Counted from the first letter of the stretch, positions 6,402-55,720 are shown. The stretch is 64,000 nucleotides of DNA from Desulfobacteraceae bacterium Eth-SRB1 (GCA_004193555.1 RPGP01000001.1:1042790-1106789), one strand, 5' to 3'. Notes: generated from the sequence alone by a model not told the origin. Translations and numbers: made by a program.

Positions 6402-7308
6402 CAGGTGCGATTTAAATTTAATTAAACAGAAAGTAGCCGAAACCGTATTTGAATCGGCCAAACACCTGACCCCGCAGGACATAGAAAATGAATTAGCAAA
6501 CAGGTGTTTTTATCCTAAAAAACAGATAAAACAGGCGATTAAAGCTTTAATTGCAGAACAGACACTTGTATATACTTATAAATATGGCCATAATTTTCTG
6601 GAAAAATCCTTTAACAGGCCTATGCGAATATCAAAGCGAGTTGTACTGAAGCCGCCTGGGATTCAATATAGCGGAATGCCCGATGATGTTGTTATTGAAA
6701 TGCAGCGTGGAGCATCATTTGGCATCGGCGACCACCCGACAACCAGGCTGGCTGTAAAGGGCATCGAACATATTTTATACACAAAGCGGTTTCTTGCAGG
6801 TAAAAAGGATACTGTAGCGCTTGATATAGGAACAGGTTCAGGCATTCTTGCGATGACTGCGGTTTTGTTTGGAGTTGATAAAGCAATCGGCACAGATATT
6901 GACCAGATTGCAAGGAAAGAGGCTAAAGAAAATATAATAATTAATGGACTGAACAATCGGATCGAAGTCAATGACCGGCCGCCTGATAATATAGGTGGGC
7001 GCTTTTCCCTGATAACCGCAAATCTGCGTTATCCTACCCTGGCAAGTTTATATTCCCGTTTAAATCATATTACAGAAGATCGAGCAGCAGTTGTAATTTC
7101 AGGCCTTAAAACGTCTGAAATGTCAGACATAAAAGAGCTTTATACACAGACATTTCTTAAGCTGGAAAAAAGTGAGGTAGAGAAAGGATGGGGCGTAATG
7201 GTGTTTGAAAAAACAGCCCAAGGAGATATTAGAACGCAGAAGTCAGGTGCAGCCAAGGTTACAACAACCTGTCAAAGCGGCGTAGACCCTGGCTGTCACC
7301 TGAACTGA
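6394..7308 (+). CDS. PrmA-like class I methyltransferase
   Basis: The 304-residue protein has an N-terminal helical, HTH-like segment (about 1-60), the G-x-G-D-H-P-T-T motif typical of L11 methyltransferases (FGIGDHPTTRLA, near 110), and the SAM-binding motif LDIGTGSGILAM followed by GTDIDQIA. It probably methylates a protein lysine, but L11 as substrate is only an analogy. The TTG start at 6394 overlaps the previous stop and follows AGGGAAGGGA. The last 25 or so residues look unlike the family and are encoded by a hairpin-forming sequence ending near 7318 (AACCTGTCA/TGACAGGTT), so the natural 3' end may have been replaced. Confidence 0.8.
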   Translation: MNDRCDLNLIKQKVAETVFESAKHLTPQDIENELANRCFYPKKQIKQAIKALIAEQTLVYTYKYGHNFLEKSFNRPMRISKRVVLKPPGIQYSGMPDDVVIEMQRGASFGIGDHPTTRLAVKGIEHILYTKRFLAGKKDTVALDIGTGSGILAMTAVLFGVDKAIGTDIDQIARKEAKENIIINGLNNRIEVNDRPPDNIGGRFSLITANLRYPTLASLYSRLNHITEDRAAVVISGLKTSEMSDIKELYTQTFLKLEKSEVEKGWGVMVFEKTAQGDIRTQKSGAAKVTTTCQSGVDPGCHLN

Positions 7309-7312
7309 CAGG

Positions 7313-7825
7313 TTATGAATTTTTTGACGACAATTCTAACTTCAACTCAAACCGTTGTTCTGTAACCGTTGCGCCCCACTGCTCACCGGAGCGTTCTTCG
7401 ACCAATTTAAACCCAAACTTCTCATAAAGATGCCTTGCTGGTCCAAGACCATGGAAAGTCCAGAGATACACTCTTTTAAACCCTGCTTTTTTGCAGAAAG
7501 AAATGGCCTGTTTCATTAGATAGTTTCCAGCACCTTTTCCTTTCAGTTTGTCCGAAATGATAAACCAGCGCAGATGTGCGATGTTTTTATTTTCAGAAGT
7601 ACCATCGATGGTAATCGCTCCTTCAATATTGTCATCAATAGACAATGACCATATACGATCTTTAATTTTGTTGTACTTATTTATGAAATTTGAAAGTTCA
7701 GTCGCTACCTTTGCTTCAAAAAAATGTCCGAAGTTCCAATGAACCGAATAGTACTTTGCATGCAATTCAGAGATTTTCCCTATTATTCCTGGCTTATATC
7801 CGATACTACTCTCAAAATCTGCCAT
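7313..7825 (-). CDS. GNAT family N-acetyltransferase
   Basis: The roughly 170-residue protein shows the GNAT acetyl-CoA loop region (ISDKLKGKGAGNYLMKQAISF, about 95-115) and a typical C-terminal LYEKFGFKLVEE. It would transfer an acetyl group to an unknown small molecule or protein. The ATG at 7825 has a GAGG nine bases upstream; a start at 7840 adds five residues. The gene is flanked by GTTATGA (7312) and TCATAAC (7849), complementary 7-mers like integron cassette ends, but no clear attC stem was established. Confidence 0.8.
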   Translation of the reverse strand: MADFESSIGYKPGIIGKISELHAKYYSVHWNFGHFFEAKVATELSNFINKYNKIKDRIWSLSIDDNIEGAITIDGTSENKNIAHLRWFIISDKLKGKGAGNYLMKQAISFCKKAGFKRVYLWTFHGLGPARHLYEKFGFKLVEERSGEQWGATVTEQRFELKLELSSKNS

Positions 7826-7968
7826 CAGCTTTATCCTCATTTAAAATCATAACCCATCACCTGTGGGCAGGGTAACAGTGCCTTTGTAAAAGGCAATTAA
7901 ACACAAAACTTGGTAAAAACTTCAAACCGCACGAACCTGCGCATCTGAGTGAATGGCGTTGGTTCTGC

Positions 7969-11623: not shown

Positions 11624-11868
11624 ATGATTCAAGCTTGGCATATCGGAAACACAACAGTCAGAACTCCTTACCGTTTAAGAGACGCTTTAATTGCTTTGGC
11701 GCATTCAGAATATCATGGCAATATGGTTTTCGATCCATTTTGCGGAAGTGGCACAACAGGGGTTGTATGTAAAAATCAAAATCGAAAGTTGTCGGCGTTG
11801 ATAATAATATAGAATACTTAAATATAGCTAAAAAAAGATTAGCTTCAACAAGCAATAGAAATAATTAA
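11624..11868 (+). pseudogene. Restriction-endonuclease-like N-terminus fused to methyltransferase tail, frameshifted
   Basis: The start, MIQAWHIGNTTVRTPYRLRD, resembles, from memory, the N-terminus of AlwI-type type IIS endonucleases. It joins a beta-class methyltransferase SAM motif, VFDPFCGSGTTGVVCKNQNR. One base is missing near 11790. Restoring it continues the text as KLVGVDNNIEYLNIAKKRLA to a stop at 11868. So two different genes were joined by deletion and the result then acquired a frameshift. It starts two bases after the double methyltransferase, where the cognate nuclease would be expected. Confidence 0.6.
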
Positions 11869-11967
11869 ATAAATTCGGTTTTGGAGCATATTTATATACA
11901 GGGGAATTGTTCTAAAACTGCAAATGTGAAGGGCGTCCCATAAATCGCACAAGATAATGGTCGCCAT

Positions 11968-12270: not shown

Positions 12271-12308
12271 TATAAAACACATAATAATTGTTATGTGTAA
12301 TAAAATAA

Positions 12309-12613
12309 ATGGAGATTAGAGAGGGAGGCGTCCTTTAGGATATCCCCATCAACCTTATGCCGCTTATACCGGCAGAAAGGAGGTTCATCATGCGTAAGCT
12401 TGTTGCTTACCTACTGATGGGGAGGCGCTTGTTGAAGATGACTATGCTTTGCTGCCGGGATATGCTCACGTTCTTCTCACACAAGAACTTTGATAGCTTC
12501 AGCACCTATCGAGAGAGAATTTTATCCCTTTCAACGATGGCAACTCTCCAATCTGGGGTTGTGTATGGTTGCGTCATAAAGTACCATGCGGCGCCTCCCT
12601 CTGTGATCTCCAT
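12309..12613. repeat. Inverted repeat flanking a small open frame
   Basis: The left arm (12309-12333) begins ATGGAGATTAGAGAGGGAGG and the right arm (12590-12613) in reverse complement begins ATGGAGATCACAGAGGGAGG, a near-perfect match over about 24 bases. The arms enclose a roughly 305-bp unit inside candidate cassette 0. It could be a long-range RNA stem or a miniature element. Confidence 0.6.
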
Positions 12614-12629
12614 TTTCAAAGAACAATAA
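12390..12629 (+). CDS. Hypothetical small protein of candidate cassette 0 (possibly frameshifted)
   Basis: The ATG at 12390 has an excellent AAAGGAGG six bases upstream. The frame gives 79 residues (MRKLVAYLLMGRRLL...VISIFKEQ) of no known family. After MRKLVAYL another frame reads TDGEALVEDDYALLPGYAHV then LLTQEL and stops. That version looks more like a natural acidic small protein, so a one-base deletion near 12415 is possible. If so, the original product would have been about 35 residues. Confidence 0.4.
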   Translation: MRKLVAYLLMGRRLLKMTMLCCRDMLTFFSHKNFDSFSTYRERILSLSTMATLQSGVVYGCVIKYHAAPPSVISIFKEQ

Positions 12630-12641
12630 AATTGATTTTTC

Positions 12642-12697
12642 ACATAACCAATCACTCAACCCGACCGTTAAAACGGCGGGTTAGCTCGTCGTTGGGC
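12642..12697 (+). other. attC-like recombination site 1
   Basis: R''-like ACATAAC (12642-12648) and R'-like GTTGGGC (12691-12697, fits GTTRRRY) flank a stem CAACCCG-A-CCG / CGG-CGGGTT with one extrahelical A, as in folded attC sites. The DUF4238 gene starts 16 bases after it. GTTGGGC is matched exactly by GCCCAAC at 13806, the end of the same gene unit. Confidence 0.65.
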
Positions 12698-12713
12698 AGA
12701 CAAAGGATATGAT

Positions 12714-13781
12714 ATGTCGGGCGCACGACAACATTTCATTCCAAGATTTTTAAAGAAAGGTTTTGCAAGCAAAACAATCAAAAAGGAAGTATACACTTGG
12801 GTTTTTACTAAAGAGAAAGAGCCCTATGAGGCTAATACTAGAAACATTGGGTTAGAAAAGTTTTTCTATGGCAATCCAGAGGATTCACAAGCAGATAGCT
12901 TAATTACTGGCAAAGAGACTGAATTTGGTTTATTCATAGATGAGCTGAGAAATAATATTAGAGACATTGAGATAGAATCTCGTATTCCATCTGAACTTGT
13001 AACTCACCTAATTATAAGAACACAACATATTAGGGAATCACTTACAGACGTTGGTAAAACTCTTGTCGATTTAGCTCAAAATAACATTACTAGCTCACAG
13101 GATTTTAAAAAGTTACTTGTGAATATCATTCAAAACAATCCAGAATTAATTGAGGAATCTTTGAGAAAAGAAGTCCTTAAGAAAATACCTCCGAGTACTC
13201 CTCCTGACATTATTGAAAAGTTCATTGAATTGGCAAAAATGTTCATTCCTCAAATTATAGAACAGCAACATGAGGAGGGGCACATGTTTTTTTCCAACCT
13301 TTTAGCCAAAATGAATGATGAAATGCAATCATTAGTTAAAGGAGCACAGGTTAGAGTTTTGTCAGAAAGTGTGGTTCCTGAAAAACATCTTGAAAAATTC
13401 GAACATTTTAGATGGAAGCTTATCGTTGTTGACCATGCAAGATTCATATTGGGGGATATTGGGCCAATTGGCTTTTATAAAACTGAAGGTACATTTCAAC
13501 CATTTCTTTTTTCTAAGGGTGAATTAGCAAATGCACTGCTACCGATTTCTGATAAGCACATAATTGTTGGCAGCTCTCAAAGCCCAAGACTTGAACATTC
13601 TTGTAATGAAATAAATGAAGCAATAGCATCTCTCAGTAAATTTTATTTTATTTCCAGAACGAAGAATGAAAGGAATATGCAACTATCCAAACTTATAGGG
13701 TCAAGATCATTGAATATTTCAGAAACTGATTTATCAAGTGCAAAAACACAAATCAGAAAAGATTTTTATGGTGAAGCATGA
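12714..13781 (+). CDS. DUF4238 domain-containing protein
   Basis: The 355-residue protein opens with RQHFIPRFLKKGFAS, the hallmark of DUF4238 proteins (R-x-H-x-x-P-x-x-x-L-x-x-F). The rest is helical and soluble with no signal peptide. The biochemical role of DUF4238 is unknown; such genes often lie in mobile and defence-rich DNA. Here it is alone between two attC-like sites with complementary ends (GTTGGGC / GCCCAAC), so it behaves as a single-gene cassette. Confidence 0.8.
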   Translation: MSGARQHFIPRFLKKGFASKTIKKEVYTWVFTKEKEPYEANTRNIGLEKFFYGNPEDSQADSLITGKETEFGLFIDELRNNIRDIEIESRIPSELVTHLIIRTQHIRESLTDVGKTLVDLAQNNITSSQDFKKLLVNIIQNNPELIEESLRKEVLKKIPPSTPPDIIEKFIELAKMFIPQIIEQQHEEGHMFFSNLLAKMNDEMQSLVKGAQVRVLSESVVPEKHLEKFEHFRWKLIVVDHARFILGDIGPIGFYKTEGTFQPFLFSKGELANALLPISDKHIIVGSSQSPRLEHSCNEINEAIASLSKFYFISRTKNERNMQLSKLIGSRSLNISETDLSSAKTQIRKDFYGEA

Positions 13782-13805
13782 GGGTCTAATTTAGTATTTC
13801 AAAAT

Positions 13806-13871
13806 GCCCAACCATGCAAATTCAGCCGACGCAAAAAACGCGCGGCTGATTTGGTTAGCCTAAAGTTAGCT
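13806..13871 (+). other. attC-like recombination site 2
   Basis: GCCCAAC (13806-13812) is the exact complement of GTTGGGC at 12691, and GTTAGCT (13865-13871) is the exact complement of AGCTAAC at 15302. Between them lies a strong hairpin: AAAT-T-CAGCCG-A-CGC / GCG-CGGCTGATTT with extrahelical T and A on one strand, the asymmetry that integron integrases read in attC. Confidence 0.78.
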
Positions 13872-13886
13872 GCTTAATAAGAATGA

Positions 13887-14384
13887 ATGAAGGGAGATGA
13901 CTTGAAAGAATTACTCGGTAAGCTTTCATCCTACAACCTGTTCAATTACCTGCTCCCTGGAGTCATCTTTGTGGTATCAGCAAGCAAGATTACACGCTAT
14001 TCCTTTATACAAGACGATATTGTCATAGGATTATTTCTTTACTACTTTATTGGGCTTGTCATTAGCAGATTCGGATCCATCGTCATTGAACCCATCCTCA
14101 GGGGAGTCTCTTTTCTCAAATTCGCTGACTACGAAGATTTCGTCGCTGCATCAAAGAAAGATGAGAAGATAGAAGTGCTTTCTGAGGCCAACAATACTTA
14201 TCGAACACTATGTTCTCTTTTTGTCCTTCTTCTCCTACTAAAAGGTTACGAAATAATCGAGGATAGATTTATCTCCCTGAAGGATTACGATGGAATGATC
14301 GTTGTTGCTTTATTATTGGTTATGTTCCTGTTTGCATACAGAAAACAGACGCTCTATATAATAAAGAGAATTAAAGCAAATTAA
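13887..14384 (+). CDS. Hypothetical membrane protein of cassette 2
   Basis: The product has about 165 residues and three or four hydrophobic segments: LFNYLLPGVIFVVSASKI (20-37), DIVIGLFLYYFIGLVIS (45-61), LFVLLLLLKGYEII (110-125) and MIVVALLLVMFLFAY (138-152). No family was recognised. The ATG at 13887 has no clear ribosome-binding site, while a TTG at 13902 follows AAGGGAG at ideal spacing and may be the true start. It precedes a metallo-hydrolase by 18 bases in the same cassette, so the pair may form a two-component system. Confidence 0.7.
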   Translation: MKGDDLKELLGKLSSYNLFNYLLPGVIFVVSASKITRYSFIQDDIVIGLFLYYFIGLVISRFGSIVIEPILRGVSFLKFADYEDFVAASKKDEKIEVLSEANNTYRTLCSLFVLLLLLKGYEIIEDRFISLKDYDGMIVVALLLVMFLFAYRKQTLYIIKRIKAN

Positions 14385-14402
14385 AACAAATGGGTAAGTC
14401 AA

Positions 14403-15287
14403 ATGAGTATAATAAGATCGTTCTCCGTCGGTGAAGGGGACATGTTCTACATCCAACATGGCAATGACAATTTTACGATCATCGATTGCTGTATGTCTGA
14501 GGAGGATAGGGACTTTCTCGTTGAACAGCTAAAGTCTGCATCCAAAGACAAAAACATTGTCCGTTTCATCTCAACCCACCCCGACGACGATCACATTTTG
14601 GGCCTCTCCTTTCTTCATGAGAAAATGAATATTCGGAACTTCTACTGCGTCAAGAATGAGGCAACCAAGCCAGACTGGACTGTCGACTTTGATCAGTATT
14701 GCGCGTTACGAGACGACTCCGATAGAGCCTTCTCTCTTTCGCGAGGGTGTTCAAGAAAGTGGATAAACCAAAGCGACGAGGAACGCGGTGGCTCGGGAAT
14801 CTACATTCTCTGGCCAATTGTGACTAACGAGTATTACAAAGAAGCTCTGAAGCAAGCCAAACAAGGGAAGAGCCCCAACAATATCTCTCCCATTGTCAGG
14901 TACATGCTCAAAGACGGGGCAGCAGTATTGTGGATGGGTGATCTTGAAGACGATTTCATGGAAAACATCAAAGACGCATTCACCATGGAAAGGTCCAACA
15001 TTCTATTTGCACCCCATCACGGCCGGAACAGTGGGAAGGTTCCAGAGGAGTGGCTTGAAAGTATTAACCCAGGAATAGTCATAATCGGTGAAGCGCCATC
15101 GAAGGATTTGAACTACTATGATGGTTACAACACGATCACCCAGAATTCAGCCGGGGACATTATCCTGCAATGTGAGTCAGGGAAAACTCACATCTGGGTA
15201 TCCAATAGGGAATATTCTGTAGACTATCTGCACGATGAAAACTTGGCTGATGCTAACTGGAACTATATTGGTACGCTATATGTCTAA
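14403..15287 (+). CDS. Metallo-beta-lactamase fold hydrolase (ComEC-like domain)
   Basis: The 294-residue protein shows the metal-binding STHPDDDHILGL motif (H-x-D-x-D-H variant of H-x-H-x-D-H, about residue 58), VLWMGDLEDDF and APHHGRNSG, the pattern of ComEC/Rec2-type MBL domains that act on nucleic acids or nucleotides. No signal peptide is seen, so it acts in the cytoplasm. It is second in cassette 2 after the membrane protein and is followed 14 bases later by an attC-like site. Substrate unknown; a nuclease or cyclic-nucleotide hydrolase role is possible. Confidence 0.78.
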   Translation: MSIIRSFSVGEGDMFYIQHGNDNFTIIDCCMSEEDRDFLVEQLKSASKDKNIVRFISTHPDDDHILGLSFLHEKMNIRNFYCVKNEATKPDWTVDFDQYCALRDDSDRAFSLSRGCSRKWINQSDEERGGSGIYILWPIVTNEYYKEALKQAKQGKSPNNISPIVRYMLKDGAAVLWMGDLEDDFMENIKDAFTMERSNILFAPHHGRNSGKVPEEWLESINPGIVIIGEAPSKDLNYYDGYNTITQNSAGDIILQCESGKTHIWVSNREYSVDYLHDENLADANWNYIGTLYV

Positions 15288-15301
15288 CCAGAAAAGGACA
15301 C

Positions 15302-15376
15302 AGCTAACCACCGCATTAACTCGGACTGGCAATTCCGCTGCGCTTCATTACCAGCCGGTTATGCAGGACGTTCTGG
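15302..15376 (+). other. attC-like recombination site 3
   Basis: AGCTAAC (15302-15308) is the exact complement of GTTAGCT at 13865. The stem reads GCAT-T-AAC-T-CGG-A-CTGG / CCAG-CCG-GTT-ATGC, with three extrahelical bases all on the 5' strand. It ends GGACGTT, like the site at 52584. The two share the frame TAACCAC-x-GCATTAA ... TTATGC-x-GGACGTT. Confidence 0.75.
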
Positions 15377-15421
15377 TAAGTTAAACAGGCGATAAAAGAA
15401 AAATTTCAGCAGGAGGTAATT

Positions 15422-16351
15422 ATGGAAAAGGATTTTCATTATTATGTAACCTGTGCATTGGCCAATAAGGCGGGCTTCAGCAACGACGATTCATATATCA
15501 TTGCCTATGCCTCTCAATACGTAGACGACAATAACGAACATCAATATCCTAAGAAAGATGGCCTGCCACAATTTCCATTCGGGATAAAGTCTAATGGCGG
15601 ATTCTTCCGGCCCATTATGACGCAGTCCATGTCGGTGAAATCTCTTGTGTATGAGATTCAAAAATTCGTTTATGTTCCGTTTCATTTCCTGCCTGGCGAC
15701 AATAATCAGCCAATGAATAGCGAGTATAATAAGTACAGCACGACCCCTGACTCCCAAAACGCCCGAAAACTTCTGAGAACAGCGCTGGCCACCGGCGATC
15801 TTTATAGAATTGGAATTGCCATCCACACATTTGCCGATACATGGTCTCATCAAAATTTTTCAGGGTATGAGGAAGATTGTAACTCTGTTTTCCACTGGCG
15901 TAATCCATTTCGGGCTTTAGCGCCGAATATCGGTCATGCTGATGTTGGTCATTTGCCGGATGAAATATCCACGACCTGGAATGACTACCGCTTTAACAAG
16001 CCGTATCGTAAAAGAAACAATCAGAAAATAGCGATTCAGGCTTGCAAGCGCATTTTTCAGGAACTAAGAACCGCACGAAAAGGCAATATTTACTGGATGC
16101 ATGTAGAAAAAGACTTCAGAAGAATAATCAATTCTGAAGATTACGATGATAGAGCCAATAAGGTTAAAGAATATGTGAACAAACCGGACCTCAGCTATAA
16201 AAAAGATGAATGGGTTGATGAGGCCGTTAAAGACCGAAAAGGGGAAGATTTAGAAGCCTCTGCAAACTTTGAAAACACCCACTGGTATAAATTTCAGCTT
16301 GCTGCCAAAGCGCACTTAGTAATGGTTATGGATATGTTAAAGAGCTATTGA
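15422..16351 (+). CDS. DUF6765-like protein (predicted zinc-dependent hydrolase fold)
   Basis: The 309-residue protein starts EKDFHYYVTCALANKAGFS, with IIAYASQYVDD, then AIHTFADTWSHQNFSGY and GHADVGHLPDEI. This array of His and Asp recalls phospholipase C/S1-P1-type zinc sites and the DUF6765 family as remembered. There is no signal peptide. A good AGGAGGTAAT precedes the ATG. It follows attC-like site 3 and so may be the first gene of a further cassette, whose 3' end was not found. Confidence 0.65.
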   Translation: MEKDFHYYVTCALANKAGFSNDDSYIIAYASQYVDDNNEHQYPKKDGLPQFPFGIKSNGGFFRPIMTQSMSVKSLVYEIQKFVYVPFHFLPGDNNQPMNSEYNKYSTTPDSQNARKLLRTALATGDLYRIGIAIHTFADTWSHQNFSGYEEDCNSVFHWRNPFRALAPNIGHADVGHLPDEISTTWNDYRFNKPYRKRNNQKIAIQACKRIFQELRTARKGNIYWMHVEKDFRRIINSEDYDDRANKVKEYVNKPDLSYKKDEWVDEAVKDRKGEDLEASANFENTHWYKFQLAAKAHLVMVMDMLKSY

Positions 16352-16366
16352 AGAAACAAGAGAAAA

Positions 16367-16618
16367 ATGAAGTTGCCTAAAATCGGCGATATTATAACCG
16401 CAAAAGAAGCAGTAGAATTGTGCCGATATTTCAGTCTGGATTATCTGCTTGAACGAATTGAATCCGATCCAGAAAGCTATAAGAATTGGAAGTTCGATGG
16501 GTGTTCAGGCTTGCGCGAAAGCAAATCAAAGAGGGAGCAGAACAAGGGCATACACGCTGATCCCAAAAGTCTAGCGGCCTTTGGTCCAGGTGATGCCCAG
16601 CCTGCAAATTGCGGATAA
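16367..16618 (+). pseudogene. Small protein, probably truncated
   Basis: The first 50 or so residues (MKLPKIGDIITAKEAVELCR...YKNWKFDGCSG) look like a genuine protein. The remaining 30 (ESKSKREQNKGIHADPKS...) look like random sequence, suggesting the 3' part was deleted and replaced. W-K-F-D-G-C-S recalls the opening of a small Cys-rich domain family, but no assignment is claimed. It starts 15 bases after the DUF6765-like gene. Confidence 0.45.
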
Positions 16619-16773
16619 AACTCGGTCAAATGTAATGTATGGTGTAACTAATATTATTTACAGCGAATTTGTCCCGTTATATGGACATCATGGTCATCCG
16701 GTAGGTGGATCTACCCTGATGTGCGCTTGAAATGGCAGTAATTTTATCACCGAAATAATTGGGGGACTATAAT

Positions 16774-19700
16774 ATGTCTTTAAGAACTACTCCATCTGAA
16801 GCACTTCTTCAATCAATTCGGTCTCATAATTGCGTGCTCTTTATGGGTGCAGGTATGGGATACCACCTCAGAAATCAATTTGGTGAAACTTGTCCTGATG
16901 GTGGTGCACTTACTAAAAAGATGTGCGCTGAATTTAACTTAGATAATGCTGTCAAAGATTTATCAATAGCATCTGAGCTAGTGGAAATCAGAAGAAAACG
17001 CGGACATTTACTCGATTATTTAAGAAAACAGCTACTTGGCTTTGATCCTGATGAACATTATCTATGGTTACCGACTATTAATTGGAGGGCGATCTATACA
17101 ACCAATTTTGATGATGGTTTATTATCCGCATATCATAAATCCTGCGCTGCTGCTCAAAATATCGTACCCATTTATGTAACAGCTGATTTTAAGGATTTCA
17201 GCATTTATACAGATGTCCCGGCCTATTTTATTCATGGATGCCTTAATCAGCCAGGGCTGCCAATTGTCATAACGCAAACTGATTACAGTCGCTTTCGCGA
17301 AAAACGAAGAATGATGTTTGAACAACTGAAGATTCATCATGCTAAATGCACTTTTTTATATATAGGTTATTCTCATAAAGATCAGAATTGGCATATGATT
17401 CATTCTGAAATGCAATCAGAATTTCCAGAAGGAAATTTCCCACGTTCCTTTAGAATTGATCCTAACCCCGATCTATCTCAATCAGAAATACTCTTAAATA
17501 AAGGAATAGAGACTATAGCATGTGATCTTAATACGCTCATTGAAGCATATACGCAGTATGTGCGAGTTCAAGGAACGGTATCGCAGATATGGGAAATACC
17601 ACAGCACTGTCCGAATGCGCTTAACGATGCTTTTGAGAATGCACCAGCAATGTGCAAGCGCCTGCTATCGAGTTGGGAATATGTGGGATCTGCTGACATA
17701 CAAACGCAACCTAACATACAAGAATACTATAAAGGCACAAAAGCAAATTGGTCGTTGATTGATGCGGCTGGTTACTTTGAACGAGATATTGAAGAAGAAG
17801 TATATGACAGCATTCTTGATTTTGCAACTGATCCGAAGAGTAAATGCCGCGCCGAAATACTTCTTGGTTCTGCCGGATATGGAATAACCACTGTGTTAAT
17901 GTCCATTGCATGGAAATCAGTACAAACAAAATTGTTACACGTTTTCTTCCTAAAAGATGGAGCTGCGATATTAGAAGGGGATATTGAATTTGCACTTAAT
18001 AACTTAGATGGAAAGACTATTTTTGTCATAGATCAAGCAAGTCGGTTACATGACAGTTTAAGTGGCATCGTCCAAAGGTGCAGACAAGATCATAAAAATT
18101 GTTTCTTTCTCTTGGGTTCTCGATTAAATGAGTGGAGACAAGAACGACCCAAACTAAAATGCAAAGAACACCTTCTATTTCCGCTTTCTGAAGCAGAAAT
18201 AGATCGACTTATAGATGTATTGAAGAAAAATAGTTTATTAGGAGAACTAGAACATCTGGACGATATGTTAAGACGCAAAATATTGATTAACAAACATCAG
18301 AAAGAACTTTTAGTTATAATGAGAGAAACCATTGAAAATAATGCATTTGATGCAATTATTGAAAATGAATTTGAAGGCATTGATAATGACGAGGCAAAAG
18401 CATTATATGGAGTTGTAGCTGGTATGCATCAATATGGCATCCTATCAAGAATGTCGCTATTAAGTGGCATCATCCAGTACAACATCGCACAAGTGCCTTC
18501 ATTAATATCTCGCTATGCAGAAGGAATTATCCGAATAGTTGAAGACCCTTTTAAAGAGGACGTCCCATGCTTAATTACAAGACACCGGATCATTGCAAAA
18601 ATAGTATGGCATAAATGCTTTCTTAGCTCAAAAAGAGAAGGCATCTTATTGGACTTAATGCGGCATTTAAATTTAGCATACAGTCAGGATAAGAAAGTAT
18701 TTGATGAAATCACAAAAGATAATGAAATCGTTGATTCTATCCGGTCCTTTGAATCCAGGACTGGCTTTTTTGAATCAGCATGTAAGAAAGATGTCAACAA
18801 TCCTTACGTGCGCCAGCATTATGCTAGGATGCTTCTTCGTGATAAAAAATACAGCCTATCGCTGAGCCAAATTGAAGCGGGGTTGAAATTAGATAAAAGT
18901 GCAAGAATTCTATATCATACACAGGGGCAAATTCTTGCAAAAATGGCTTTAGACGCAGGTGAGCAGGCAATCGGAGAAAAATATTTCACTAGAGCGATCG
19001 ATAGTTTTAATACCTGCATAGAAATGTACAAGAGCGATGATTACGGATATGCATCGTTAGCTAAATTATACATAGATTGGGCAACACGTTGGGATAATCC
19101 AGAAACATATGCAAAAAATATAAGCAGATGTGAAGAGGTAATTAGTGAAGGACTAAGACATGTTACAAAAAGAGAAAGTCTATTATTAGTTTCGTCTAAT
19201 CTTGAAAGGATATTAGGGGATCAGCCCAAGCGTATAGAATTATTAAATAAAGCTCTTAAAGAGAATCCGGCTAGCGCTATTTGTAGATACTTGTTAGCGA
19301 GAGACGCCTATAACAAAAAAGATTATGACGGAGTGATTACGCTTTTAAGGCCAACTATTGAAAGCCGTTTCGACGAGATCCGTAGCTTTATTCTATATGC
19401 AATAGCTGTCTCAATATACGATAAAAATTACGCACGAGCCCTTGCAGTTTTGAAGCAAGCTGACCCAATAGCATGGGCTGATCCAATTTTCGTTGCCACT
19501 CTTGGAGGAATGATTTCGTTATCAGGAAATGCAAGCGAAGCCGAAAATATTTTTGAAAGGGCGAAAAAACAAAGATTCCCGGAAGAAGAAGCACGTCAAG
19601 TCGCATATCAGCCCACTGATTTAGCTGATCCAAATCTTTATATAACTACTACAGGAACGGTAATAGTTACTAAATCTGCATATCTGCTTATCCAATCAAA

Positions 19701-19830
19701 GCAATTCGGGAAATTCTTTTATCCTTCGCCTAAAGTAGAAGGGGTATATGTAAAAGCACAGACTATATTAAAATTTACTATTGCCTATACAGGAAAAGGT
19801 GGACTTGTTTTGAATCCAAGTATTGTTTGA
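16774..19830 (+). CDS. SIR2-like / STAND-like NTPase / TPR protein, predicted antiphage
   Basis: The roughly 1018-residue protein has three parts. Residues 1-260 are a SIR2-like domain (LFMGAGMGYHL, then YTTNFDDGLL, AYFIHGCLNQ, FLYIGYSHKDQNW), which in defence proteins degrades NAD. Residues 330-560 resemble a STAND-type P-loop region with GSAGYGITT (about 365-373) and IFVIDQA. The normal P-loop Lys is Ile371, so nucleotide hydrolysis may be altered or lost. From about 690 to 960 there are TPR-like helical repeats that would sense a trigger. The ATG at 16774 follows GGGGG; a TTG at 16759 is possible. SIR2-STAND proteins (Avs-type) abort phage infection, so this role is inferred. Confidence 0.75.
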   Translation: MSLRTTPSEALLQSIRSHNCVLFMGAGMGYHLRNQFGETCPDGGALTKKMCAEFNLDNAVKDLSIASELVEIRRKRGHLLDYLRKQLLGFDPDEHYLWLPTINWRAIYTTNFDDGLLSAYHKSCAAAQNIVPIYVTADFKDFSIYTDVPAYFIHGCLNQPGLPIVITQTDYSRFREKRRMMFEQLKIHHAKCTFLYIGYSHKDQNWHMIHSEMQSEFPEGNFPRSFRIDPNPDLSQSEILLNKGIETIACDLNTLIEAYTQYVRVQGTVSQIWEIPQHCPNALNDAFENAPAMCKRLLSSWEYVGSADIQTQPNIQEYYKGTKANWSLIDAAGYFERDIEEEVYDSILDFATDPKSKCRAEILLGSAGYGITTVLMSIAWKSVQTKLLHVFFLKDGAAILEGDIEFALNNLDGKTIFVIDQASRLHDSLSGIVQRCRQDHKNCFFLLGSRLNEWRQERPKLKCKEHLLFPLSEAEIDRLIDVLKKNSLLGELEHLDDMLRRKILINKHQKELLVIMRETIENNAFDAIIENEFEGIDNDEAKALYGVVAGMHQYGILSRMSLLSGIIQYNIAQVPSLISRYAEGIIRIVEDPFKEDVPCLITRHRIIAKIVWHKCFLSSKREGILLDLMRHLNLAYSQDKKVFDEITKDNEIVDSIRSFESRTGFFESACKKDVNNPYVRQHYARMLLRDKKYSLSLSQIEAGLKLDKSARILYHTQGQILAKMALDAGEQAIGEKYFTRAIDSFNTCIEMYKSDDYGYASLAKLYIDWATRWDNPETYAKNISRCEEVISEGLRHVTKRESLLLVSSNLERILGDQPKRIELLNKALKENPASAICRYLLARDAYNKKDYDGVITLLRPTIESRFDEIRSFILYAIAVSIYDKNYARALAVLKQADPIAWADPIFVATLGGMISLSGNASEAENIFERAKKQRFPEEEARQVAYQPTDLADPNLYITTTGTVIVTKSAYLLIQSKQFGKFFYPSPKVEGVYVKAQTILKFTIAYTGKGGLVLNPSIV

Positions 19831-20008
19831 TAATGTTTTAGTTAATAGCGGAGTAAGTTTTCAAAAAGGGAATGGGGTCACCCATTAAAGGGCCGGTCAA
19901 GAGAAAAAACACCTCTCCATCCAAAAAAATACACAAACGATCTCCGTTGTCCATTGCCGGCTGAATAGGAAATAGGATGCGAAATAACGGATAGAAGAAG
20001 GAAAATAA

Positions 20009-50015: not shown

Positions 50016-50459
50016 TAGATTGTCTTGAGAAACAGCTTTTAGCTGTTGCATAACCCCACATATTCGATCTGGTGCGCATTCCCTTCAGCGTTCCAATTTT
50101 CAATGATGTTGTTTTGGGGGTCTATTAATTTTATACGAAGTTTCGTCGAAGCATTCCAGTTTCCAAGTGTAAAATGAACGATGCTCAATAATATCAATCT
50201 GCAAATTATACAAAGACGATAACTCCGCTATTTTTCAGGCGATAAGGCGCTCAAGATTTGACCTTTATTGCTTGGATTAATTGCTCGGAATTTCTTTCCG
50301 CGCAAATCATTTACCTGCACCCGAACAATATCCGATGGCATTCCTCCCAACCTATACTGTGTTCCAATAGGGCTGTGGGTGTATTGTTTTGTTTGAGCGC
50401 ATCCTGTGGCGCCACGATTAGGGATGAAAAGAATGAAAAGCGAGGAAAGTATTTTTCAT
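50016..50459 (-). pseudogene. Lipoprotein gene, inverted truncated pseudogene copy
   Basis: The minus strand matches the lipoprotein gene at 51564. The start ATG is at 50459, but the A-run after it is one base shorter (ATGAAAAATAC versus ATGAAAAAATAC), which shifts the frame at the second or third codon. The 3' end is lost at the edge of the duplication. It therefore gives no functional protein. Confidence 0.8.
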
Positions 50460-50635
50460 TGCCAATCTTACAATTGTATTGCTCGGCACAAGCATTACAA
50501 ACGTTTTAGTTAACCTCCTGTAACGGGTCAAAAGAAAATCCCCTTTAACCTTCACAGAACTTGATTTATCCCTCTGAAAGACTCAAATGATTCTGCTGCC
50601 AGTTGTCTCGGTTCAATCGAAAGTTTGTTGAACAG
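50016..50635. repeat. Inverted duplication, left arm
   Basis: Reverse complement of 51396-52009 with scattered differences and small indels, by eye about nine of ten bases identical. It includes the upstream segment and most of the lipoprotein gene. The right arm is the intact copy. Confidence 0.85.
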
Positions 50636-50911
50636 ACCTGCGGGTCTGTGGCGGTTAAAGTTGTATTTTGCTTAGAATTGTCTATGGATATTGTAGAATC
50701 GTTTCCTACTTTGAATTCATTGATTTAACAGGTAAAACAGTCGCTATTCTTGGCTTTATAAAGTGTGTTCAATTGACTCAAAAGCTTTGAAGTAATTTAT
50801 GCATAATTTGCTTGTAAAAAGAGCTCTGATCTCTTTTTCAAAGAGCCTTTCACTGATAGAATATTCATGCGCCTAACAAAATATTGATAACTACAAATAT
50901 AAAAATGGTTT

Positions 50912-51365
50912 TCATGCCGCAAGAAGCAAGGTTTTATCATGCCAATCTTCGGTAAACTGGCCCTTTGAACGTTTCAGGCATGGAATGGTTTTAAGAACAA
51001 TCAGACGTTTGCCGCAGACAGGACAACGCCTGTGGTGTTTTCGCCTTGCTGGCCGTACATAATGTCTGCCAGCCTATAGCTGGCTCAACCGAGTTGACCA
51101 AAAGCTGTCGGCATAGCGCAAGTTCTTCTTTATGGCTGTGATGGTACAACCATAAGAACGGACTCGGATAGACCCTGAGATCGGCACATGCTGTAAATAT
51201 CTGCCGATAAACTGAAAATTGGTAGTAAACCGCGTTCAATCTTTCGCGGCCATAGTTGAAGGTTACCTTGCCATCTTTAATTGAGAATATCCGCTTGTTG
51301 ATATAGGCCCGCCTCGAAGGTAGCGTGCCAGGTATATCAGTAATCTACGCCGTGAGAATATGTCT
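50912..51365 (-). pseudogene. IS91-family (Y2) transposase, C-terminal remnant
   Basis: Read on the minus strand with shifts between frames: LLIYLARYLRGGPIS, NKRIFSIKDGKVTFNYG, FIGRYLQHVPISGSIRVRSYG and the zinc-finger-like CPVCGKRLIVLKTIPC before a stop at 50912. These are the ordered landmarks of IS91/IS801-type rolling-circle transposases. Several frameshifts make it inactive. It lies in the centre of the inverted duplication and may have caused it. Confidence 0.75.
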
Positions 51366-51395
51366 CTTTCAAGCATTACCGTTCACTTTTCCCGC

Positions 51396-52009
51396 CAGTT
51401 CAACAAACCGTTGAACCAGACAACTGGCAGCAGAATCATTTGAGTCTTTCAGAGGATAAATCAAGTTCTGTGAAGGTTAAGAGAGTTTTCTGCTTTTGAC
51501 CCGTTGCAGGTTAACTAAAACGTTATGTGCTTGTGCCGAGCAATACAATTGTAGGAGGTGGCAATGAAAAAATACTTTCCTCGCTTTTCATTCTTTTTCA
51601 TCCTAATCGTGGCCCTTACAGGATGCGCTCAAACAAAACAATACACCCCACAGCCTATTGGAACACAGTATAGGTTGGGAGGAATGCCATCGGATATTGT
51701 TCGGGTGCAGGTAAATGATTTGCGCGCGGAAAAAGAAAATTCCGAGCAATTAATCCAAGCAATAAAAGGTCAAATCTTGAGCGCCTTATCGCCTGAAAAA
51801 ATAGCAGGTTATCGATCTTTGTATAATTTGCAGATTGATATTATTGAGCATCGTTCATTTTTTACACTTGGAAACTGGAATGCTTCGACGAAACTTCGTA
51901 TAAAATTAATAGACCCCCAAAACAACATCATTGAAAATTGGAACGCTGAAGGGAATGCGCACCGATCGAATATGTGGGGTTATGCAACAGCCAAAGCTGT
52001 TTCTCAAGA
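51396..52009. repeat. Inverted duplication, right arm
   Basis: Partner of 50016-50635, with the intact lipoprotein gene and the cassette boundary GTTATGT. The arms are separated by the IS91 remnant, so the whole is a 2-kb inverted structure. Confidence 0.85.
51522..51528 (+). other. Integron-type R' core GTTATGT (start of lipoprotein cassette)
   Basis: GTTATGT is the exact complement of ACATAAC at 52584, the R'' of the attC-like site ending this unit. The full upstream attC stem could not be defined. In the inverted copy the same position reads GTTTGTA, so only this copy is intact. Confidence 0.6.
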
Positions 52010-52076
52010 CGCATATAATATTGCAGTCGCTGATATGATGTCCACTCTGTCAGCAGTATCTTTGAAAAAGCAATAA
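51564..52076 (+). CDS. Hypothetical lipoprotein of an integron-like cassette
   Basis: The 170-residue protein has a lipoprotein signal peptide: MKKYFPRFSFFFILIVALTGCAQ, with lipobox LTGC and Cys near position 21. It would therefore be anchored in a membrane. The mature part (GGMPSDIVRVQVNDLRAEK...FTLGNWNASTKLRIKLIDPQ) looks like a small periplasmic beta domain of unknown function. ATG 51564 follows AGGAGG. A decayed inverted copy lies upstream. Confidence 0.8.
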   Translation: MKKYFPRFSFFFILIVALTGCAQTKQYTPQPIGTQYRLGGMPSDIVRVQVNDLRAEKENSEQLIQAIKGQILSALSPEKIAGYRSLYNLQIDIIEHRSFFTLGNWNASTKLRIKLIDPQNNIIENWNAEGNAHRSNMWGYATAKAVSQDAYNIAVADMMSTLSAVSLKKQ

Positions 52077-52097
52077 TAAAAAATTAAGGACTTACCT

Positions 52098-52589
52098 TTG
52101 GCGAAAGACCACAGAAAAGAATATCATGTTCGACTGATCGATAAATATCTTCAATCGGTGAATATCTACTGGAGCGCACTAATCACGATAAACGGTCTGT
52201 TGTTGACTTTTTTCTCTATCGATGTCTTGTCGTCTAATGAAAATACAACCCTCTTCAATTATCTTCTCATTGGGGTGTGCATTACCTCATTATGGTTATT
52301 GATATGGAATTTCCGAACCATAAAGACGAATTATTATAAAATAGGTAAACTGACAGTGGACGATCTGCCGGATGTGCCGGAAGATGTACGTGAGACAGCC
52401 CGTACTATGGAAGACACGAGACAACTCATTGATGAGTACACCGCAGAGTATAGACAGAAGGAAGTTAATAGATCTGCCAACCAGCAACGGTATATGATGA
52501 TTCGAGAGTCTATAGTAGAAGGCTTATTTGTCATGGAAACGATACTTGTCGTAATAATTATAATTACAAGAGCTAAATGGGGCACATAA
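52098..52589 (+). CDS. Hypothetical membrane protein of the lipoprotein cassette
   Basis: The 163-residue protein has hydrophobic segments at about 25-45 (IYWSALITINGLLLTFFSI), 53-70 (FNYLLIGVCITSLWLLIW) and near the C-terminus (GLFVMETILVVIIIITR), with a charged soluble part between. It resembles the small SLATT-like membrane proteins linked with defence effectors only in general layout. Start TTG at 52098, after AAGGA. Its stop lies inside the attC-like site at 52584. Confidence 0.65.
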   Translation: MAKDHRKEYHVRLIDKYLQSVNIYWSALITINGLLLTFFSIDVLSSNENTTLFNYLLIGVCITSLWLLIWNFRTIKTNYYKIGKLTVDDLPDVPEDVRETARTMEDTRQLIDEYTAEYRQKEVNRSANQQRYMMIRESIVEGLFVMETILVVIIIITRAKWGT

Positions 52590-52645
52590 CCACGGCATTA
52601 AGGGCGACGGCAAAAAGCCGCCGCGCCTTATGCCGGACGTTGGAC
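52584..52645 (+). other. attC-like recombination site 5
   Basis: R'' ACATAAC (52584-52590) and R' GTTGGAC (52639-52645, fits GTTRRRY) bound a strong hairpin GGCAT-T-AAGG-GCG-A-CGGC AAAAA GCCG-C-CGC-GCCTT-ATGCC with extrahelical bases. It shares the sequence frame of the site at 15302. ACATAAC pairs with GTTATGT at 51522; GTTGGAC pairs with GTCCAAC at 54713. Confidence 0.82.
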
Positions 52646-52691
52646 TGAAAAAACAATCAATAATATCATCAATGCGGAGAGAATATATATT

Positions 52692-53252
52692 TTGAAAATA
52701 GCACAGTCTATTCAACGTTATGGAGACGAATTGCAGGAAATCTTTTCTCAGGAACGAGCTGCTGTGTTTCTCTGTGGCCCAGCAATTGATAAGCTTGATA
52801 AACCAGGTGAACAATTAAGGCAAAAACTTGAAAAAGCACTTAAAATTGAGGGGTTTGATGTAATACTTGGCGAGGATGATGGCCTTGAACAAATTAGAAA
52901 CAAGTATAGTTCTTATGCTCATGAAAATGAATTGCTATTCGTAGAAAAACATTGTCTTGCTACTGTTTTAATTGCGTCAAGTGTGGGGTCATTTTGCGAA
53001 CTTGGCTTATTTTCCTACAAAAAGGTTCATACCTTAAAATCTGATTTTATTTTGATTATAAGTGATCAATTCAAAAAGGACAAATCTTACCTTAATGAAG
53101 GGCCAGCTGCAGCTATAGAAGATTTTGGCAAGGTATATTACGGGGATCTGCAAAATTTCGATTATTCTGATCTTATGCGCCGCCTAAAAAGAAGACGTTC
53201 TATTTGGGTTACCAGTTACAAAGGACGCTCGCCAAAAGAGATAGTCAAATAA
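52692..53252 (+). CDS. Retron-associated nucleoside-deoxyribosyltransferase-like effector
   Basis: The 186-residue protein has the NDT-like layout of the Retron-Eco1 (Ec86) toxin effector: AAVFLCGPAID (24-33), a variable middle, ASSVGSFCELGLFSYKK (95-111, with Glu103 where the catalytic Glu is expected) and KSYLNEGPAAAIEDFG (131-146). Eco1's effector continues into a winged-helix domain, but here the protein ends and that domain is in the next gene. The TTG start follows GGAGAG. The stop overlaps the ATG of the reverse transcriptase gene. It likely attacks nucleotides or NAD when the retron senses phage. Confidence 0.8.
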   Translation: MKIAQSIQRYGDELQEIFSQERAAVFLCGPAIDKLDKPGEQLRQKLEKALKIEGFDVILGEDDGLEQIRNKYSSYAHENELLFVEKHCLATVLIASSVGSFCELGLFSYKKVHTLKSDFILIISDQFKKDKSYLNEGPAAAIEDFGKVYYGDLQNFDYSDLMRRLKRRRSIWVTSYKGRSPKEIVK

Positions 53253-54730
53253 TGAAAATTAATTTCAATGAAGATATTTTGCTCTGGGCGATTGGTGTTC
53301 TCCAACCAGCATCAGCGAGCGACGCTTTAAAATTCATTTCATACATTTATCCAGAAATTAAGCCTTTACCCCTTGTTAAAGAAATTGATCAAGTTCTATC
53401 AAGATATAGAGATCTTGGTATTGTCGTAAGAGTTCATGGAAAATCACGTTTATATTCGCTTACATATGCAGGAAACGCAAAATTATCATTAAAACTTAGG
53501 AGGCATAGAGATAAAGCTCGTTTATTCTTGCTAAAGGATACAAGAAAATGTAATATGGTTTTGTCGGGGGAGGAAAAAAAGGAATCGGTTGGCGCTTCGC
53601 CAACCTCAGATGGTAGCAGTACTTTACAAGATTTTGCGCGGCCAATAAAATCGGCCGCCGCACCTCGGTACCCTCGGCACAACGGCCGATTTTATTGGTC
53701 GCGGATCTCAAAGCAACTGAATTTTCAAGTTGGTCTTAATTTTTCCTCCCCCGACATTTTTCTTAAATATTATTCTTTCCCATCGTTAAAAGCTATCCAC
53801 AACATCAGTCCAGACCCAGCAGAGGGCAATGATTTAAGCGTTACTGATTTTGCTCTATCAGTTGGTGTTAGCCCCCGATTAATCACATCTTTACTACATG
53901 CCACACATAAATATTACAGACAGTTCAATATTGGTAAGCGGGGCGGTGGCAAACGAACAATAAGCGCCCCAAGGACCTTTTTGAAAGTTATTCAATATTG
54001 GATACTCGACTACCTACTGTATACTCTGAAAAGCCACCCTATTTGCCATTCATATCAAAGGGGAAAGTCTATTATAACAAACGCGTCCCCTCATATAAAC
54101 TCTGAGTATGTCGCAAATATTGACATAAGTGACTTTTTTGGCTCAATAAATCAGACAATGATAATTGATCTTCTTAGAAAGAATGGTTTTGGTGAGCAAT
54201 TGTCAAAAACAATCGCCAGACTTACATCGCTCAATAACGGTCTCCCCCAAGGCGCACCAACAAGTCCGATACTCTCAAATGCTTATCTCTATTCTTTCGA
54301 CGAAACAGCAGCGCAAATCGCCCAAAACACAGGGTTACATATCACAAGATATGCCGATGATATTGCCATAAGTGGAAAGAAAAAAGATTCAATCATCAAT
54401 GTAATCACACTTTTTAAACAAGAATTATCCGCCAAGGGCTTGGAACTCAACGCTAAAAAAACGCGGGTCGCAAGCCGAGGTGGCCAGCAACGCGTGGCAG
54501 GGGTAGTGGTCAACGATAAAGCATTACCCCCGAGAAAGCTCCGTAGACGGGTTCGGGCAATGTTTCATCAAGCAGATAATTACCCTGAAGAACATGTTGA
54601 AAAATATAATACTTTGAGAGGTTACTTGAGCTATTTTAATTCATTCCCTGCCCTAAAAGGTGGTCCAGAGCTTGAAAGTTATAAAGAGATTTTGAAGAGT
54701 TTGAGTAACAATGTCCAACCAGGCGCTTAA
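53252..54730 (+). CDS. Winged-helix-reverse transcriptase fusion (retron RT)
   Basis: The 492-residue frame has three zones. Residues 1-100 (ILLWAIGVLQPASASDALKF...GIVVRVHGKSRLYSLTYAG) resemble the winged-helix part of the Eco1 effector. Residues 104-168 are encoded by the retron non-coding RNA itself. Residues about 170-492 are a group II-like retron RT with NIDISDFF (about 289, catalytic Asp291), LPQGAPTSP (331), the YADD box (367-370) and VAG (415-417) in place of the usual retron VTG. There is no ATG, GTG or TTG in frame between the RNA and the RT, so the RT must be translated through the RNA or from a rare ATT at 53756. The 3' end overlaps an attC-like site. Confidence 0.88.
   Translation: MKINFNEDILLWAIGVLQPASASDALKFISYIYPEIKPLPLVKEIDQVLSRYRDLGIVVRVHGKSRLYSLTYAGNAKLSLKLRRHRDKARLFLLKDTRKCNMVLSGEEKKESVGASPTSDGSSTLQDFARPIKSAAAPRYPRHNGRFYWSRISKQLNFQVGLNFSSPDIFLKYYSFPSLKAIHNISPDPAEGNDLSVTDFALSVGVSPRLITSLLHATHKYYRQFNIGKRGGGKRTISAPRTFLKVIQYWILDYLLYTLKSHPICHSYQRGKSIITNASPHINSEYVANIDISDFFGSINQTMIIDLLRKNGFGEQLSKTIARLTSLNNGLPQGAPTSPILSNAYLYSFDETAAQIAQNTGLHITRYADDIAISGKKKDSIINVITLFKQELSAKGLELNAKKTRVASRGGQQRVAGVVVNDKALPPRKLRRRVRAMFHQADNYPEEHVEKYNTLRGYLSYFNSFPALKGGPELESYKEILKSLSNNVQPGA
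53562..53756 (+). ncRNA. Retron msr-msd non-coding RNA inside the RT reading frame
   Basis: The outer arms a1 TGTCGGGGGAGGAAAAA (53562-53578) and a2 TTTTTCCTCCCCCGACA (53740-53756) are perfectly complementary over 17 bases. Inside are an msr hairpin with a perfect 8-bp stem, GGTTGGCG-CTT-CGCCAACC (53587-53605), and a long msd stem of 21 bp with one G-U pair (53637-53657 with 53683-53703, core CCAATAAAATCGGCCG) around a 25-base loop. Order, size (195 nt) and position before the RT domain fit retron RNAs. A G in the A-rich run after a1 is expected to be the branching base. Confidence 0.88.
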
Positions 54731-54828
54731 CTCAGACGGCTAACACCGAGCGATTTTGAGATATTTTACTGTCATTACTTTTTGAGCTTTCTGGCAGGCT
54801 TTGGCTGTCAATCCGCCGCTGGTTAGCT
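54713..54828 (+). other. attC-like recombination site 6, overlapping the RT 3' end
   Basis: GTCCAAC (54713-54719) lies in the last codons of the RT gene and is the exact complement of GTTGGAC at 52639. GTTAGCT at 54822-54828 is the proposed R'. The interior (CCAGGCG ... GACGGC, and GGCTGTC ... CGCCGCTGG) pairs only imperfectly, as in long attC sites. It closes the retron cassette; the zeta-toxin gene follows 32 bases later. Confidence 0.65.
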
Positions 54829-54860: not shown

Positions 54861-55376
54861 TTGAAAAATAAATGTTACATCATAGCTGGACCTAACGGTG
54901 CAGGGAAAACAACATTTGCTAATGAATTCCTTCCAATTGAGGCCGAATGTCTGAACTTCATAAATGCAGATTTGATCGCTCAAGGCTTATCTCCTTTCCA
55001 ACCAAACAAAATGGCCATCGAAGCAGGAAGATTAATGATTCAGAATATTAATGAATGTGTTAAAAAGAGTGAATCGTTTGCTTTTGAAACAACACTTAGC
55101 GGCAAGGGATACATGAATAAAATAAGAAATTGGAAAACGAAACAATATGAAATCATAATTTATTATCTCAAGGTTCCAACAGTGAAATTTGCAATTGAAC
55201 GTGTGAAACTGAGAGTTTCCCAAGGTGGGCATAATGTCCCAGAGCAGGACATCATACGTCGATTTGAAAGAAGTTGGAGCAATTTTCAACAGATATACAA
55301 ACCTCTGGCTGATTCATGGATTGTGTTTGACACTTCTGGAAACCAGCCGATTATCCTTGATGAATCGGAGCAATAA
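54861..55376 (+). CDS. Zeta-toxin-like P-loop kinase
   Basis: The 171-residue protein has Walker A IIAGPNGAGKTTFANEFL (about 7-24), the NADLIAQGLSPF and FAFETTLSGKGY segments and a C-terminal R-x-x-R-F-x-R-S pattern (IIRRFERSWSNF). These are features of zeta-toxin-type kinases, which phosphorylate UDP-sugar precursors of the cell wall in the best-known members. A 63-residue gene follows after two bases and is a probable partner. Confidence 0.82.
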   Translation: MKNKCYIIAGPNGAGKTTFANEFLPIEAECLNFINADLIAQGLSPFQPNKMAIEAGRLMIQNINECVKKSESFAFETTLSGKGYMNKIRNWKTKQYEIIIYYLKVPTVKFAIERVKLRVSQGGHNVPEQDIIRRFERSWSNFQQIYKPLADSWIVFDTSGNQPIILDESEQ

Positions 55377-55378
55377 GA

Positions 55379-55570
55379 ATGAAAAAACACAATAAGTATG
55401 CATTGTTAGGGTTAAAGGCATTAGAGCGAGCCGTTGCAAAGGTCGCGGAAAATGCAAGAAAAAATAAATATAAAATTCCTGTATGGAAAAATGGGCGTAT
55501 TGAATATGAAATTCCAGGAATAATCACCGAACAAGCCAGTGCACCTGATGCCAAAAGTCGGGGCATTTAA
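55379..55570 (+). CDS. Small protein paired with the zeta-like toxin
   Basis: The 63-residue basic protein (MKKHNKYALLGLKALERAVA then KVAENARKNKYKIPVWKNGR) has a helical N-terminal half. It starts two bases after the toxin gene. This close pairing of a zeta-like kinase with a small basic protein suggests an antitoxin, but no family is recognised. Confidence 0.6.
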   Translation: MKKHNKYALLGLKALERAVAKVAENARKNKYKIPVWKNGRIEYEIPGIITEQASAPDAKSRGI

Positions 55571-55720
55571 GAAATTATGTGACTTTGCTAATGTTTTTCA
55601 TTTTTTGAATTTATGTGGCAACTTTTGGCACAGGTGACCGGCGACGTTTCTGTTTCAATATTTATCTTCTGAGTCGCATTATCTGTTGACAAAAGGCAGG
55701 CATTAGCACATATATATAAT
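55571..55720. other. Short intergenic region before the BrnT-like module
   Basis: No gene was found. It carries the promoter-side sequence of the next toxin-antitoxin pair, without a clear operator. Confidence 0.4.

Follow-up and report, generated by a model that had tools for sequence, protein, structure and literature searches.

Organization of the locus

The window analysed here is a 64,000-nt stretch of the genome of Desulfobacteraceae bacterium Eth-SRB1 (GCA_004193555.1 RPGP01000001.1:1042790-1106789), and all positions are counted from its first letter. Four consecutive units on the plus strand, each ending in an attC site, occupy positions 12290-16605. Cassette 1 opens with the R' box GTTATGTG (12290..12297), an exact complement of CACATAAC at 12641, with its predicted left crossover between 12290 and 12291, and is followed by a 56-nt attC (12642..12697; R'' ACATAAC, R' GTTGGGC) that was recognized both by a covariance model and by its fold. 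The cassette is filled by a predicted structured RNA of approximately 310 nt (12307..12615), in which about 12307-12332 pairs with 12590-12615 as a terminal stem; an open frame inside the RNA (12390..12629) is probably not a gene. Cassette 2 carries a gene for a 355-aa DUF4238 protein (12714..13781; PF14022, E 1e-15) and ends in the attC at 13806..13871, whose R boxes (R'' GCCCAAC, R' GTTAGCT) both match their partners exactly. Cassette 3 contains two genes. The first encodes a 165-aa PDC-M48A protein (13887..14384; PADLOC E 1e-65), described as a membrane protein by an earlier reader of the sequence, and the second encodes PDC-M48B, a metallo-beta-lactamase (MBL)-fold protein (14403..15287; PADLOC E 4e-139). 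Its attC (15302..15376) has R'' AGCTAAC and R' GTTCTGG, with the crossover at 15370/15371. Cassette 4 consists of a gene for a 309-aa DUF6765 protein (15422..16351; PF20551, E 3e-71), an apparently truncated 83-aa frame (16367..16618) that is 170 aa long in the copy of a relative, G014, and an attC (16537..16605) with R'' GCAGAAC and a decayed R' that has no GTT.

A sequence-only reading of this DNA had proposed a dispersed, CALIN-like group of cassettes at 12290-15376. The cassettes that it named hold, whereas its right-hand limit does not, as a fourth cassette (15370-16605) extends the array to about 16605. The two complementary pairs on which it drew, GTTGGGC (12691) with GCCCAAC (13806) and GTTAGCT (13865) with AGCTAAC (15302), lie exactly where it had placed them, and the second is 8 bp long with the flanking base included. 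The pair at 12290/12642, which it had called weaker, turns out to be the longest of the exact matches. Genes were said to begin close to R', and the starts at 12714, 13887 and 15422 fall 22-52 bases past it. No attC adjoins 12290 on its left, which speaks against the array. A scan for promoters and terminators gave counts no higher than in shuffled sequence.

attC sites and integrases

A covariance model of attC (model R1) was built from 15 sites located beside integrases or integrase fragments elsewhere in the genome, none of them from the window. Alignment of whole attC sites with MAFFT misaligned the L'/R' side, and the loops were therefore trimmed ahead of modelling. In the window, the model matched 15302-15376 (46.7 bits, E 6e-8), 52584-52645 (45.3 bits), 7318-7229 on the minus strand (37.6 bits), 55526-55653, 12642-12697 (30.4 bits, E 2e-4) and 16537-16605 (26.5 bits, E 2e-3), as well as the site at 54713 and others. 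Few or no matches were returned at loci without expected cassettes. The anatomy R''-L''-loop-L'-R', with AAC and GTT at the ends and a stem bearing extrahelical bases, is found in the cluster, at the 13806 site by folding and not by the model, and at the 16537 site without the final GTT. Over 57 nt, the 16537 site shares 89% identity with an intact attC from another genome (G016). The 13806 site gave no match to the model at E<=5; on folding it forms a stem of 13 pairs that leaves two L''-side bases unpaired, and it is asymmetric, having a 12-nt spacer instead of the usual few bases ahead of R'. This attC is closed by two R'-like boxes 12 bases apart (13853-13871; GTTAGCC TAAA GTTAGCT), of which the second alone matches the next R''. 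A simpler scan for attC sites with one bulge proved too strict, recovering 52584 alone.

Extrahelical bases had been pointed out by eye at 13806 and 15302, and DNA folding places unpaired L''-side bases in the L''/L' stems at 12642, 13806, 15302 and 52584. The sequence frame said to be common to 15302 and 52584 is likewise real (CACCGCATTAA and CACGGCATTAA, respectively). The earlier reader had also suggested a covariance search of the chromosome and a search for intI elsewhere, and both were run. Genome-wide, the independent model found at least 34 attC-like sites at E<=1 in addition to recognizing those in the window; this count is a lower bound, with 150 of 2068 candidates scored and the 52584 site absent from the list. 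The host genome (3.34 Mb in 52 contigs) holds five integron integrases above the curated TIGR02249 cut-off, three of them uninterrupted by stops, plus fragments. The claim that no integrase is present is therefore correct for the window, where the TIGR02249 profile had no match, but not for the genome. Four attC sites within 4 kb and no integrase in the window make the cluster a CALIN. Integrons are common in this order: an integrase above the cut-off occurs in 37 of 58 genomes, and attC matches occur in 31 of 38.

Further cassettes were observed in the window. At 51522-54828, a first cassette that encodes a 172-aa protein together with a PycTM-like one is followed by a type II-A retron with an NDT effector and an RT (padloc E 2e-46 and 2e-174). 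The retron is bounded by R' GTTGGAC at 52639 and R'' GTCCAAC at 54713, and is thus a retron in the form of an integron cassette; an inverted repeat within its 508-aa RT frame (GTCGGGGGAGGAAAAA...TTTTTCCTCCCCCGAC, 53560-53760) is perhaps the msr/msd RNA. Part of the gene at 51558-52076 is duplicated in inverted orientation about 1 kb upstream (50020-52076), and the duplicate surrounds a repeat that is also present on C40 (L013 5481-5611). At 54861-55653, a Zeta-toxin-like frame, identified by eye and without an NCBIfam match, precedes another attC (55526-55653, 30.8 bits). The minus-strand attC at 7318-7229 belongs to a GNAT acetyltransferase cassette (7229-7853) with R' GTTATGA at 7853 and R'' TCATAAC at 7318.

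Complementarity of cassette ends

Complementarity was assessed by comparing each R'' with the R' one site to its left, over 38 consecutive pairs drawn from the window, the other arrays of the genome and one array of Desulfobacteraceae SURF_7. Perfect complementarity was found in 29 of the 38, against a mean of 2.1 by permutation and a maximum of 9 in 20,000 permutations. All four variable bases are complementary in 12697/13806, 13871/15302 and 52645/54713, and only three of four in 15376/16537, the pair of cassette 4. Three of the four pairs in the window are perfect, and 12290/12641 is exact.

The complementary 7-mers and hairpins could in principle be products of chance, or ordinary terminators or repeats flanking normal genes. 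The sequence-only reading had itself said that an abundance of such 7-mer pairs in random expectation and a genome empty of other attC-like sites would count against it. Other attC-like sites do exist in the genome. Pairs of the form GTTNNNN/NNNNAAC number 6 in this region against 2-6 in shuffled sequence, which is not significant alone (202 against 125-149 over the whole window). Neither outcome refuted the proposal. The case for cassettes accordingly rests on the position next to attC structures and on a homology breakpoint at the crossover, not on the 7-mer pairs. Independent covariance matches with E values of 6e-8 to 2e-3, the permutation result and the breakpoint at the predicted crossover refute the explanation by chance or by ordinary repeats, to which we give practically no credence.

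The probable RNA of cassette 1

The sequence-only reading had seen a small frame in cassette 1 (12290-12641). This frame is better explained by a structured RNA of some 310 nt, and the cassette very probably encodes this RNA and not a gene. The 351-nt cassette has a folding energy of -123.7 kcal/mol, whereas shuffled sequences average -91.5 (sd 5.2), giving a z-score of -6.2. Homologues were found in two other Desulfobacterota-type genomes, SURF_7 and Ww165. The SURF_7 homologue is 81% identical over the core and constitutes a separate cassette within a dense array, with the same R boxes as in the window (GTTATGTG/CACATAAC) and a different attC, while the Ww165 copy lies downstream of an attC-like site. 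Minimum free energy z-scores for the three RNA copies were -7.0 (window), -5.8 and -8.9, and none of the other short cassettes tested from the SURF_7 array folds as unusually. The consensus fold retains 95.3% of its pairs, compared with 45-54% when slid, and 13 pairs show double-sided compensatory changes against 4.8 (sd 1.7) in shuffles, with 0 of 500 as high. A stable fold conserved through compensatory change is thus observed, from three sequences.

A small protein of 79-90 aa, with the RNA structure incidental, would be the obvious alternative, given that the frame is uninterrupted in both the window and SURF_7, that AGGAGG stands ahead of its ATG, and that the two translations are 64% identical. 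Substitutions between the window and SURF_7, however, number 17/13/16 at codon positions 1/2/3, without an excess at third positions, and the Ww165 copy has a stop at codon 35. The frame at 12390-12629 therefore shows neither purifying selection nor intactness in all homologues, and is not under coding selection. The 13 compensatory pairs, about half of which fall in the terminal stem with its 5' strand outside the frame, also speak against a protein, which we consider an unlikely product of the cassette. Inverted repeats of some 25 nt at the ends of the element might instead suggest a MITE or another remnant of a DNA transposon. The outer parts of these repeats nevertheless vary and covary between copies where a transposase would need conservation, the internal helices are conserved too, the element fills a cassette in two genomes, and it is present in a single copy in its own genome. 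A transposon origin is consequently even harder to credit than a protein.

No Rfam family matched the RNA at the gathering score. When a model of the RNA core was run against some 320 genomes of the order, only the two known homologues were returned, and no copies occurred in the plasmids, phages or viral contigs searched. Weak matches in three genomes (G108, G175 and G355) cover 25-32 bases and are probably due to chance.

In all three copies of the RNA, a single CGCCUCCC strand has two potential partners, identical GGGAGGCG segments, the alternative fold costing 7-11 kcal/mol. The CGCCUCCC strand is the invariant part of the terminal stem, and the outer stem covaries, as would be expected if both pairings matter. 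We infer that the RNA would be transcribed and would be able to adopt two states. Because a different gene lies downstream in each genome, a leader dedicated to one gene is disfavoured, and the remaining options are an RNA acting in trans or a general element. On balance, we lean towards a new family of RNAs of about 310 nt, spread by integrons, whose fold is kept as attC sites and neighbours change and which may act as a two-state switch.

Cassette 4 and the origin of the array

Two relatives within the family, G014 and G008, carry cassette 4 DNA at 93-96% identity. Homology to both begins at 15371, immediately past the predicted G^TT crossover, and the sequence upstream of this point differs among the three genomes. 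In both relatives, the base ahead of TTCTGG is A and not G (CGGTATTCTGG), and the boundary is therefore exact to about 2 bases without proving G^TT. On the right, homology to locus L074 ends at 16518, which, with ORF 3514-4026 of L074, indicates that the 83-aa frame of cassette 4 is truncated. Cassette 4 in G014 and G008 and cassette 1 in the SURF_7 array are thus units that occur in other contexts.

The independent attC model, the permutation of R boxes and the homology breakpoint together support the CALIN-like cluster that had been proposed by eye. We place the probability at about 0.94 that 12290-16605 is a real four-cassette CALIN in one orientation, formed by serial insertions by an integron integrase in trans. 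The integrase (IntI) recombines attC as a folded strand, at G^TT, and each cassette therefore has complementary ends, R' on the left and R'' on the right. The integrase behind the successive insertions of cassettes 1-4 would presumably be one of the genome's own. The cargo delivered in this way would comprise the structured RNA, the DUF4238 gene, the membrane/MBL-fold pair, and the DUF6765 gene with its truncated frame. The last attC has lost its GTT, and the right end of the array is therefore now inert.

CALINs can form from integrons by rearrangement, and the cluster may have been built in place or may have been cut from a longer integron. Several integrons are present in the genome, including two on the same contig, and repeats are found nearby, as would suit a severed fragment of the genome's own integron in place of separate insertions at a secondary site. 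The window, however, has no integrase remnant, and its attC sites measure 56-75 nt, most of the sites beside integrases being longer (100-139 nt). We regard such a severed fragment as a possible but somewhat doubtful origin.

No empty site was found, and the upstream flank in the relatives is a mosaic. At 11727, an identity of 92-96% with three relatives in a DNA-methylase region stops abruptly, and from 11724 it resumes elsewhere in those relatives (about 2.5 kb further in G014), marking an insertion or deletion breakpoint. Repeats of approximately 55-65 bp at 19871-19933 and 11890-11947 occur in many genomes of the order.

Protein cargo and defence

Pfam DUF4238 covers residues 5-306 of the cassette 2 protein, and the PADLOC profile DUF4238-Pers gives a weak, partial match (residues 1-121, E 4e-6). 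In cassette 3, both PDC-M48 proteins match their profiles and are adjacent, and the pair is conserved in two other genomes (G113 and G147) at 54-60% identity. Assignment of the MBL-fold protein to 6A-MBL or Avs1a was rejected, as the NCBIfam scores of 32.6 and 31.2 bits fall below the respective cut-offs of 220 and 420. No attC was found near relatives of the MBL and DUF4238 proteins outside the window. These profile matches suggest that cassettes 2 and 3 would have a defence role, likely against phages. Adjoining the array at 16759-19830 is a gene for a 1023-aa SIR2-STAND-TPR protein, ThsA-like according to padloc and likely anti-phage, which is not within a recognized attC cassette.

Comparison with known systems

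R'/R'' complementarity spotted by eye can reveal genuine, decayed cassette clusters. The present one documents a group with common integrons and dispersed cassettes, and adds likely phage-defence genes to the cargo. One DUF4238 protein protects against T7 as a single-protein anti-phage system (PMC9122126); the cassette 2 protein is alike in family by profile, although its match to DUF4238-Pers is weak and partial. The cassette 3 pair likewise belongs by profile to PDC-M48 (PADLOC), a predicted candidate system whose closest relatives were found outside attC arrays.

A CALIN is a row of at least two attC sites within 4 kb with no intI nearby, mobilization in trans being possible, and cases distant from an intact integrase are on record, as in Xanthomonas (PMC12444791). 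The cluster is alike in its row of attC sites, single orientation and lack of a nearby intI, but differs in its conserved structured-RNA cassette and its decayed last attC.

The surprise lies in the RNA, since cassettes are usually regarded as carrying protein genes or promoters. ORF-less or gene-less integron cassettes, described from Vibrionaceae and an oral metagenome, act mainly as promoters (PMC11014356, PMC6557892). Cassette 1 is similarly without a credible protein gene, but carries instead a conserved 310-nt fold with compensatory changes, a concrete case for testing the role of gene-less cassettes. A parallel in cargo is sRNA-Xcc1, an integron-encoded sRNA of Xanthomonas (cited in PMC12444791) which shares its cassette with symE and runs opposite to the usual direction. 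It resembles the cassette 1 RNA in being non-coding, borne on a cassette and spread between genomes; the cassette 1 RNA is set apart by lying in the cassette direction and filling its cassette. The array thus adds a further case to a kind already described, in which the RNA cargo distinguishes cassette 1 both from gene-less cassettes and from sRNA-Xcc1.
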